The notes under the pieces: model-generated | Told to the model about the DNA's origin: nothing | The model's database searches: none | The model's input: only the letters and a program-made list of their open reading frames with translations | Part shown: positions 12,331 to 16,675 of the stretch, one piece after another | Layout of the letters: every line of letters begins with the position of its first letter | How positions within the stretch are numbered: the first letter of the stretch is position 1 | NCBI GenBank assembly: GCA_010405405.1 | Contig: MU004237.1 | Span: forward strand, 1,809,345 to 1,873,344 | DNA: 64,000 nucleotides | Direction: 5' to 3' | DNA from: Microthyrium microscopicum | Lineage: Eukaryota; Ascomycota; Dothideomycetes; Microthyriales; Microthyriaceae | Program-made: the position numbers and the translations under genes

Positions 12331-12667
12331 CTAACATAAACTCTGTAGAAACACAGCTACCACCAACCAAATCGCAACAGTCCATAAAACCCCATTTCCA
12401 CCTGTTCTACCTGCACCCGAAGAACAGATGACCACAGCCGAATTCTCTTGCGCATCAGTCATCCTACCTTGCCTACCCAAGCAATCCCTCAATTGAGACT
12501 TGATTTGGCCAACAACTTTGCAGTAGATGTTACAATCGTCCTGGGCTACGATATAGTCCGCGCCGTTACAGCAGGCGTGCATGTCGATGCTTGCGTTTTG
12601 GTATGACTGGATTGCTATACCGTTGTAACGAGGTGTAGTGATATTGATAATGATATCGAGCACGAGG
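12331..12667 (-). pseudogene. 5'-truncated cell-wall/GPI-type small cysteine-rich protein
   Basis: The minus-strand frame encodes a mature-looking part of a small secreted protein: ITTPRYNGIAIQSYQNAS, HACCNGADYIVAQDDCNIYC, CKVVGQ, then a Ser/Gly stretch and a C-terminal hydrophobic tail (VLWTVAIWLVVAVFLQ) like a GPI-anchor signal. The expected signal peptide is missing: the first residues of the open frame (MQMKQKLR) are encoded by the inverted repeat of the adjoining MITE, inserted at a TA around 12668. Reading across the site without the element gives a short hydrophobic run (ILILYLVLDIII) but no start codon before a stop. The gene is therefore probably dead. An undetected upstream exon is the alternative. 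Confidence 0.55.
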
Positions 12668-12669
12668 TA

Positions 12670-12888
12670 CCGTAGCTTTTGTTTCATTTGCACGTTTAAT
12701 TAAGCCTATTTGGGATTTCAAATTTAGGCTTACCAATATATTTCACCAATGATAAGTAGAGGTTTGATGTTTCACGTGTGAGCAAAAGGGACATTTCCTA
12801 CACATAATATCGTAAAAGATATTAGTAAGCCCAAATTTGAAATCCCAAATAGGCTTAATTAAACGTGCAAATGAAACAAAAGCTACGG
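12670..12888. mobile_element. TA-flanked MITE, 219 bp (Tc1/mariner-like)
   Basis: Bases 12670-12733 and 12825-12888 are 64-base inverted repeats with a single mismatch, starting CCGTAGC and ending GCTACGG, with TA on each side (12668-12669 and 12889-12890). The centre is about 90 AT-rich bases without coding capacity. TA duplication is the mark of the Tc1/mariner superfamily. Near-identity of the arms suggests a recent insertion. It cuts the 5' end of the cell-wall-type gene at its left. Confidence 0.85.
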
Positions 12889-13098
12889 TACAGTATTAGG
12901 ATTCTTGAAGATTCTCTGCCTTACTTGAACCCTTCATCTCTTTGTATCAGAGCACGGCGCAGCGGCGCAGCGGCGCTTATGGCTTTCATACCCAACATAT
13001 TCTCTCCAATATCGTGCCAATGGATTTATCTATATTCTAGAGGCTAAGAGCCAACAACAACAGATCAGCCTGGGTACTGTCCTATGCCGCATTCTGTA

Positions 13099-13325
13099 CC
13101 GTTTTCTGACTTTGAGTTTACGCATTCTAGCGCCGGATTTTACGGTGATGGAAGCTTTTAGGCCTGCGCCAAAAGGGGCAAAAGGGGGTATCTAAACTCT
13201 TTAAAGGGACAACTTATGAAACTTTGTAGAGGTTTCCTCATAGAATTAGGGGTATGAAAGCCAATTAAGCCACCAATTTGGTCCAGCCCCGCGCTAGAAT
13301 GCGTAAACTCAAAGTCAGAAAACGG
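13099..13325. mobile_element. TA-flanked MITE, 227 bp (second family)
   Basis: Bases 13099-13133 and 13291-13325 are perfect 35-base inverted repeats, starting CCGTTTTCTGAC and ending GTCAGAAAACGG, flanked by TA at 13097-13098 and 13326-13327. No coding capacity. It shares only the first CCGT with the MITE at 12670. A 14-base string (TGGCTTTCATACCC) inside it also occurs in opposite orientation at 12980-12993, so the sequence between the two elements may itself be repeat-derived. Confidence 0.82.
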
Positions 13326-13327
13326 TA

Positions 13328-14392: not shown

Positions 14393-16675
14393 ATGCGTTC
14401 TTCACTTCTGTTCGCGGCATGTACATGTCTATGGACCCTCGTTGCGGCGCAAGAAAGTATAGGAGGCCACTCGGTCGGCGGACATGGCCATAAACACATG
14501 CACAGTCGAAATGTCAACCACGACAAACCTAAACCCAAGGCCAAGAAGCGTGAAGCCAAGAAACAGCCTCCTGTCCCTGGAGCCAACTCACAACAAAATG
14601 AGCACAATAGGAAAATCGGAGCAAAGAAGCGAGGTACAGAGAAGTATGATTTCTCATCTCTGCTTTGGGTCAAGAACGCGTCTAAGGTAGCTGCTAAATC
14701 TCATCCAAACAGAAAAAATGGAGCTAGAAAACGATCTTTGCCGAAGTATGATTTCTCATCTCTGCTCTGGGTTAAGAACATTTCCAAGGTTTTGAGCCAG
14801 CCTCATCCAAATCGAAAGAATGGAGCGAAGAAACGAGAGATTGGAAGACGCCAGACTTCCACAGATGGTTCGTGTGGAGCGGGAGTTGGTACTTGTCCTG
14901 CAGGTCAATGCTGTTCAGCTTCTGTAAGTATTATGACTTCGCAATCGAGCTTAAAGCATAGCACTGATCGAATCAGGGATGGTGTGGCGTTGGTATACAG
15001 TATTGTGCTTCTCCAGATTGCCAATTGGACTATGGTCCAGGCTGTGATGCCAACACTATACCTCCTGGAACCACAACCTCAGGTGTAGCAAGGACACAGT
15101 CAACATCTCCGAAGATTCTTTACGGTGGTGCCGGAATATATCATTGCACAGTATGCATTGTCAACACACTCAGATTCTGTGTCTAACATGCTACAGGTCC
15201 CTGGTACCATTGCCATAACTTATGATGACGGACCATACAACTATACAAGCAACGTCTTGGACTTGTTCGACAAATACAACGCAAAAGCCACGTTCTTCAT
15301 CACCGGCAACAATCTCGGAAAAGGCGAAATTGACGACCCATCCACCCCATGGCCAGCCATAATCAAACGCATGGAAAGTTCAAACCACCAAATCGCCTCA
15401 CACACTTGGAGTCATGAAGATCTGTCCGAAATCACAGCCACGCAGCTCCAAAACCAGATTTATTACAACGAAATGGCTTTCCGCAACCTTTTAGGTTATT
15501 TCCCAACCTACATGCGTCCACCCTACTCATCATGCACATCCGCCTGTTCAACTTTCCTCGGTACAGCAGGCTACCACATCTGCTATTTCGATCTCGACAC
15601 TGAGGACTATCTGCACAACGACCCAACGCAAATCCTTGTCTCGCATCTCGACGTCACTGGCAACTTATCCACCGGCAATAATCCTAAAGTCAATTCATGG
15701 CTCAGCGTCTCTCACGACATTGACTATGAGACGTCGTATGACTTGACGGAATTTATGCTCAAGACTTTTACGACCGCTGGCTTCAACATGACAACTATAG
15801 GCGACTGTCTCGGCGATCCCAAAGCAAACTGGTATCGTACGGCGGGAGGCGCCGCTGCATTCACACCAAAAGCATCAGCAACTTCATCTGCTGCCGCAAA
15901 TGCTACGGGCACAACAACAGACGGATCCTGTGGTGCCGCAAATGGTGGCTCATGTGCTAATTCCGGCTTCGGTAATTGCTGCTCAGCAAGCGGATGGTGT
16001 GGAACTGGGACAACGTACTGCGGTGATGGATGTCAAGTTGGTTACGGCACCTGTGGAAACTCCACCGCTACCTCAACCTCAGCAGCGCCAGTCAGCACAA
16101 AAGTCTCCACTGACGGGACCTGTGGCGGGACGAATGGCTACACCTGCACAAACAGTGGTTTTGGCAATTGTTGCTCAGCCGGCGGCTGGTGCGGCTCAAC
16201 TTCCGACTACTGTGGTGCAACCTGCCAGACGTCTTTCGGTACTTGTGGCTCTTCGAGTGTCGTTTCATCTGCTGGTGTGGTAGTCTCTTCTGCTGGCGCC
16301 TCTGCCGTTGGAAAAGCATCGTCAGTTGTCGGTGGCCTTGTCTCATCAGCTGGCACATCAGCGAGCACTACATCAGCGACATCGAAATCCAGCTCTGTGA
16401 CATCCTCTTCCTCGGCAAAAACAACCAGCACCACATCGTCCACGACATCCACGACATCAAAGACCTCATCCACCACTTCATCCACTGCTGCAGCTAGTAC
16501 ACTCAAAGTCAGCACGACCGGACAATGTGGCGTGGGCACTGGACTGACGTGCAAGGGATCCACCATTGGCACTTGTTGTATCCAAGCAGCGGACTTGGTT
16601 CCTGGATTGTGTATGTCTAGTATATCGTGTACGCTAATGTCTGCGTTTTGCAGGACGGCTTATGGAACTTGTTAA
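14393..16675 (+). CDS. Secreted chitin deacetylase, NodB (CE4) domain with CBM18 modules
   Basis: Removes acetyl groups from chitin at the cell wall. Exons 14393-14923, 14977-15150 and 15197-16675 give 727 residues. Order: signal peptide (1-19); a basic pro-region with two 34-residue repeats (81-114, 115-148), each ending in a dibasic site and containing KYDFSSLLWVKN; a first chitin-binding module (about 157-200, split by intron 1); the NodB domain with TYDDGP, SHTWSH, RPPYSS, DTEDY and SVSHDIDYET; two further CBM18 modules (TTDGSCG and STDGTCG); a Ser/Thr-rich linker; and a last eight-cysteine module. That last module has odd spacing. A 45-base GT-AG segment at 16609-16653 could be spliced in frame, but reading through keeps all eight Cys, so I left it in. 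CE4 metal and catalytic residues appear intact. Confidence 0.92.
14633..14836 (+). repeat. Two 102-bp tandem units coding a Kex2-bounded peptide repeat
   Basis: Units 14633-14734 and 14735-14836 encode 34 residues each with the shared cores KYDFSSLLWVKN and HPNRKNGA followed by RKR or KKR. A partial copy of the unit end (NRKIGAKKR) precedes them. The three dibasic sites are exactly 34 residues apart. Confidence 0.88.

Follow-up and report, generated by a model that had tools for sequence, protein, structure and literature searches.

A gene for a predicted CE4 protein with chitin-binding modules occupies positions 14393 to 16675 on the forward strand of the window, by which we mean the whole 64,000-nucleotide stretch of Microthyrium microscopicum DNA that was analyzed. 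By frame-based translation, the product has 727 residues and is spliced from three exons, with two short introns lying between exon 1 and the part encoding the CE4 domain. Four splice combinations keep the reading frame; the one adopted was picked by eye for its Cys pattern and its fit to a sister gene, L003. The exons, and the parts of the N-terminal region encoded by exon 1, are listed below.

14393 to 14923, forward strand: exon 1 of the CE4 gene, read from the translation; signal-like segment, pro-region, and start of a chitin-binding module.
14393 to 14449, forward strand: putative signal peptide, residues 1 to 19, placed by eye from the translation with cleavage at AA↓Q.
14450 to 14551, forward strand: His-rich leader QESIGG...KPKAKKR, with 6 His in 34 residues, closing at the first Kex2-type site, AKKR↓EA.
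14552 to 14632, forward strand: spacer of 27 residues; it holds the tail a third time, as HNRKIGAKKR, without the core, and closes at the second site, AKKR↓GT.
14633 to 14734, forward strand: repeat unit 1, residues 81 to 114 (34 residues), with the sequon N95-A-S and the third site, ARKR↓SL.
14735 to 14836, forward strand: repeat unit 2, residues 115 to 148 (34 residues), with the sequon N129-I-S and the fourth site, AKKR↓EI.
14837 to 14851, forward strand: EIGRR, with the fifth and last dibasic site, IGRR↓QT, preceding the predicted mature N terminus at Q154.
14977 to 15150, forward strand: exon 2; remaining part of the N-terminal chitin-binding module, judged by eye, plus a linker.
15197 to 16675, forward strand: exon 3; CE4 polysaccharide deacetylase domain, further chitin-binding modules, Ser/Thr-rich linker, and Cys-rich C terminus, stop included.

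The CE4 protein matched PF01522 (Polysacc_deac_1) with an E value of 3.3e-33 and PF00187 with one of 8.7e-12, the latter in three stretches across the whole protein, with two PF00187 places falling within exon 3. Its best match in the PDB was 2iw0, a chitin deacetylase (E 5.1e-49). The motifs TYDDGP, SHTWSH, MRPPYSS, DLDTEDY, and SVSHD, which correspond to CE4 catalytic motifs 1 to 5, were read by eye in the translation and are all intact. Judged from its sequence, the gene product is most likely a secreted, wall-directed CE4/CBM18 chitin deacetylase. A Ser/Thr-rich stretch (16245-16520) separates the chitin-binding modules from the Cys-rich C-terminal segment. A Pfam scan of exon 1 alone returned a single match below the cutoff, to CTX_RstB (E 0.15), which was regarded as chance.

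The pro-region comprises 134 residues and is basic, with 34 K/R versus 8 D/E, 9 His, and a predicted pI of 11.2. Within it lie the two units GTEKYDFSSLLWVKNASKVAAKSHPNRKNGARKR and SLPKYDFSSLLWVKNISKVLSQPHPNRKNGAKKR, which are identical at 25 of 34 residues and end in ARKR and AKKR, respectively. The first-pass annotation of this DNA had placed two 34-residue units with a common core, closed by RKR or KKR, at 14633 to 14836, and these coordinates proved exact. It had also seen a third dibasic end in front at a spacing of exactly 34, and this too is present, the ends falling after residues 80, 114, and 148; the foremost copy, HNRKIGAKKR, consists of the tail without the core and brings the tail repeat family to three copies that are 102 nt apart. 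Two further dibasic sites (AKKR after residue 53 and IGRR after residue 153), the His-rich leader, and the presence of one sequon in each unit were additional to what had been described. In 5,000 shuffles of pro-region residues 21 to 153, the number of identities never exceeded 15 of 34 (mean, 7.9), so that a chance origin of the 25 seen is ruled out. The pro-region contains five dibasic sites versus 2.7 expected, and 10% of the shuffles reached five; their number alone is unremarkable in so basic a stretch, and it is the regular placement and the common context that are unusual.

To look for relatives of the repeat, the genome (36.9 Mb in 20 contigs) and other collections were searched. A protein search found the repeat block nowhere else in the genome among the best candidates scored, and exact degenerate DNA patterns for the core and for the tail gave two genome matches each, both within the CE4 gene. 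PDB sequences gave 0 matches to the repeat, and the pattern matches in prokaryote genomes (32) and viral contigs (5) included no relative, as expected for a fungal gene. A search for the CE4 family returned 14 matches; with this gene set aside and L013 and L015, which are neighbors on one strand, merged, 12 other CE4 genes were counted. N termini were cut out by eye for eight of the 12 (L002, L003, L005, L006, L007, L008, L010, and L013), the other four being L009, L011, L012, and L014. In each of the eight, the mature part is preceded by exactly one KR/RR site, and a pro-segment removed by Kex2 therefore looks usual for the CE4 family in this genome. The position of the EIGRR site corresponds to that of this single site. 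The repeat is absent from all eight N termini read, and among these paralogues it thus arose in, or survived only in, the one studied here. None of the eight sister pro-segments was significantly similar to the repeat-bearing one, the best being that of L005, whose score was matched by 17% of 500 shuffles. The nearest paralogue among seven sisters compared is L003, which shares 134 of 213 residues (63%) of the CE4 domain and has a single-site pro-segment with no repeat. In four of the eight sisters (L007, L008, L010, and L013), the pro-segment opens with HPGH or HLSH and continues to a KR site, an arrangement that echoes the His-rich leader.

Comparison of unit 1 with unit 2 (NG86) gave 13.2 synonymous changes at 23.3 sites and 15.8 nonsynonymous changes at 78.7 sites (dN/dS 0.22). 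As the differences between the copies are mostly synonymous per site, the protein sequence of the units appears to have been kept. The synonymous excess was significant across the whole unit (Fisher p 0.0012) and in the core plus tail (p 4e-5), the tests being made on rounded counts and the division into core and tail being picked after the data had been seen. In the core, KYDFSSLLWVKN, all 12 residues are identical, with two synonymous changes and zero nonsynonymous changes, and in the tail, HPNRKNGAxKR, 10 of 11 residues are identical, with five synonymous changes and one nonsynonymous change (K/R at P3). No synonymous excess was seen in the middle of the units or in their first three residues (p 0.37). 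At the DNA level, the core (14642-14677 versus 14744-14779) is identical at 34 of 36 bases, while the middle and tail show high synonymous divergence; local gene conversion in the repeat core is possible.

These counts bear on whether the repeat could be a neutral or slippage-born duplication in a disordered basic pro-segment, cut or uncut and without function. There are only two copies, no relatives were found elsewhere in the genome, and none of the eight sister pro-segments read was significantly similar to this one, all of which would suit such an origin. However, nonsynonymous change between the copies lies well under synonymous change, and with synonymous divergence high outside the core the copies look old and constrained. 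We consider a functionless duplication improbable.

Exon 1 has five [KR]R sites, whose last residues are 53, 80, 114, 148, and 153. Their P4 residues are A, A, A, A, and I, aliphatic in five of five cases, and an aliphatic P4 is preferred in the extended Kex2 motif (PMC8528282). At P1', they have E, G, S, E, and Q; acidic or small P1' residues are over-represented after cleaved Kex2 sites, and the same source reports that some good-looking sites stayed uncut (PMC2515848). Kexins of Ascomycetales were there expected to select more strictly for charged residues at P4 and P1' (PMC2515848), whereas none of the P4 residues found here carries a charge and only two of the five P1' residues do. The genome contains one kexin-like gene, identified by a single P_proprotein match (E 1.4e-25) in an open frame of 891 residues, and the D, H, and S motifs of the subtilisin triad were read by eye within 842 residues of this frame. 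With an aliphatic P4 at every site and a kexin-like gene in the genome, the earlier suggestion that Kex2-type dibasic sites bound the repeats was upheld, and Kex2 is predicted to cleave at them. The same observations weigh on the idea that the pro-region is left uncut, so that a basic, His-rich block remains on the enzyme as an anchor to the wall or substrate. The predicted pI of the pro-region would favor this, as would the "His-Box" found ahead of a Kex2 site in yeast Sun4- and Scw10-like proteins, for which a role in wall attachment has been speculated (PMC2515848); the His-rich leader likewise precedes a Kex2-type site. Set against five plausible Kex2 sites, a kexin-like gene, and chitin-binding modules that already supply anchoring, such a role is very improbable.

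Only two N-x-S/T sequons occur in exon 1, N95-A-S and N129-I-S, at the same position in each unit. Their middle residue differs between the units, and the Ser codon has changed synonymously. The sequon is weak evidence, since 31 to 35% of shuffled units contain one; among the eight sister pro-segments, only that of L005 has any (two). One N-glycan per unit is weakly suggested. To our knowledge, the yeast alpha-factor precursor, which offers a parallel, has no enzyme domain. Its pro-region is N-glycosylated at three sites and cut by Kex2, and its peptide units have Kex2 ends, as predicted for the units here (PMC12141369). However, its product is a 13-residue pheromone and its glycans are in the leader, whereas here the sequons lie inside the repeats.

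Taken as a whole, the arrangement is best read, at a probability of about 0.5, as a pro-region dissected by Kex2 at multiple sites, whose main job would be in making or holding the enzyme. The signal would be removed first, and Golgi kexin would then cut after AKKR53, AKKR80, ARKR114, AKKR148, and IGRR153, freeing the mature enzyme from Gln154. As is to be expected of a Kex2-processed pro-domain, IGRR↓Q lies ahead of the first chitin-binding module in a genome with a kexin-like gene. The pro-region would thereby be split into the His-rich leader, the spacer, and a pair of basic, near-identical peptides, each trimmed by carboxypeptidase to about 31 residues (GTEK...KNGA and SLPK...KNGA), which may be N-glycosylated. 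Computed monoisotopic masses of the predicted peptides are 3402.78 for GTEKYDFSSLLWVKNASKVAAKSHPNRKNGA and 3522.91 for SLPKYDFSSLLWVKNISKVLSQPHPNRKNGA. The 34-residue module would have been born by duplication and then held by selection, and the role of the pro-region would most likely be in folding, exit from the endoplasmic reticulum, latency, or wall targeting. The peptides, one per unit, would be cosecreted and could have activity of their own. The last site alone suffices for a leader, yet the sites between the units have been kept, which favors release of separate units.

That last point leads to a tentative alternative, a dual product like that of Kex2-processed repeat proteins (KEPs). 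The two released peptides, each of about 31 residues, would themselves serve as signals outside the cell, as structural peptides of the wall, or as interaction factors, with the enzyme as the second product. Each unit has a cleavable end of its own, the spacing is exact, and core and tail have remained at 12/12 and 10/11 identical residues despite synonymous changes. In addition, a peptide is known to be released from a mushroom GH128 protein, where it was detected by mass spectrometry (MS) (PMC9769878). This protein, Coprinopsis cinerea 365456, is the closest precedent for the present gene that the comparison offers, having a signal sequence and a Kex2-flanked peptide, followed by a carbohydrate-active enzyme domain, GH128, that could remodel the wall; in its authors' view, the absence of repeats keeps it out of the KEP class (PMC9769878). 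It differs in having one short, unrepeated peptide and a GH128 domain, whereas here a repeated 34-residue module with five sites accompanies CE4/CBM18 and release is a prediction. Against a dual product, there are only two full units, which make up 9.4% of the protein, under the 15% cutoff of one KEP survey, and the helical amphipathicity of the peptides is at the shuffled level, being reached by 40 to 65% of shuffles. An antimicrobial or membrane-active helix is accordingly unsupported, as the helical moments are no higher than those of shuffled peptides. Knockouts of kep genes in C. cinerea had no detectable phenotype (PMC9769878); release of a peptide does not, then, imply that the fungus itself depends on it. 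The proposal of the first-pass annotation that one gene delivers a wall enzyme plus a peptide thus gains a precedent in the mushroom GH128 protein, but a bioactive peptide is no more likely than a duplicated propeptide.

KEPs are secreted precursors, as the present protein is predicted to be, and likewise have near-identical units between Kex2 sites in one compact block (PMC6339444, PMC7329392). Both surveys that define them ask for at least three similar fragments between Kex2 sites (PMC6339444, PMC7329392), and one also asks that repeats make up at least 15% of the protein length (PMC6339444). In contrast, the CE4 protein has two full units and one tail-only partial copy, in a block that covers 68 of the 727 residues of a large enzyme, or 11% if the 27-residue tail-only fragment is counted (3 × 27/727). 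The gene lies outside both definitions and, on the criteria as stated, would be passed over by either pipeline. One KEP type, S-6 (Neocallimastix and Piromyces), was annotated with Chitin_bind_1 (PMC7329392), so the mere presence of a chitin-binding module in a KEP is no novelty.

A likeness to pheromone and dikaritin precursors had also been drawn, and this comparison was not supported. Dikaritin precursors have a short repeated core with a Tyr for cyclization. The present units each have one Tyr, but they are long and have no partner UstYa gene close by: among the 22 genome matches to UstYa/DUF3328 listed, none lies in the window, and the nearest, on contig C8, is about 980 kb away. A dikaritin (ustiloxin-type) RiPP precursor was rejected because none of the listed UstYa matches lies near the gene.

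Kex2-processed pro-domains are also described for the K2PP effectors (PMC8528282) and the Sun/Scw wall proteins (PMC2515848), which share an N-terminal pro-segment closing with a Kex2 motif; however, the available parts of these two sources describe no tandem Kex2-bounded repeat within it. Among characterized chitin deacetylases, PcCDA (PMC5794925) and PaCDA (PMC6415152) likewise have a CE4 domain flanked by CBM18 modules. PcCDA differs in being described as mature directly after removal of the signal (PMC5794925), and the word "propeptide" is absent from the available texts on both proteins. No described CE4 protein with such a block was found in the literature covered, which was mostly titles and the starts of abstracts and included few subscription journals.

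If the block is a leader only, it would still be a clear example of a pro-region that was duplicated, kept by selection, and dissected by Kex2, in which the function of a pro-domain could be tested simply by deleting it. Should the peptides be genuine products, secreted fungal enzymes would be an unscreened source of signaling or wall peptides made in a fixed ratio to a chitin-remodeling enzyme. The fullest version of this idea, which we regard as rather doubtful, is that one gene yields a chitin-modifying wall enzyme and two near-identical (glyco)peptides of about 31 residues at a fixed 1:2 ratio, released by Kex2 and active outside the cell. It would then belong to a class of repeat-bearing, dual-product carbohydrate-active enzyme precursors that the KEP surveys would filter out, because both need at least three repeats and one also needs 15% of the length.

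In the surroundings of the gene, 10 of the 50 listed frames of at least 150 residues were scanned. The matches were to a multicopper oxidase, pieces of C2H2/Zn-cluster and Fungal_trans domains (the latter an example of the fungal gene content), DBR1, MT-A70, HLH, Rad60-SLD, and VPS9/ankyrin; one frame had a subthreshold match to Rpr2 and another had no match. Some 1.1 kb before the gene, at 13097-13327, inverted repeats of 40 nt that are 98% complementary lie 151 nt apart and have the look of a small MITE-type element. Another palindromic element on the upstream side, at 12667-12891, has inverted repeats of 80 nt that are 95% complementary and 65 nt apart.
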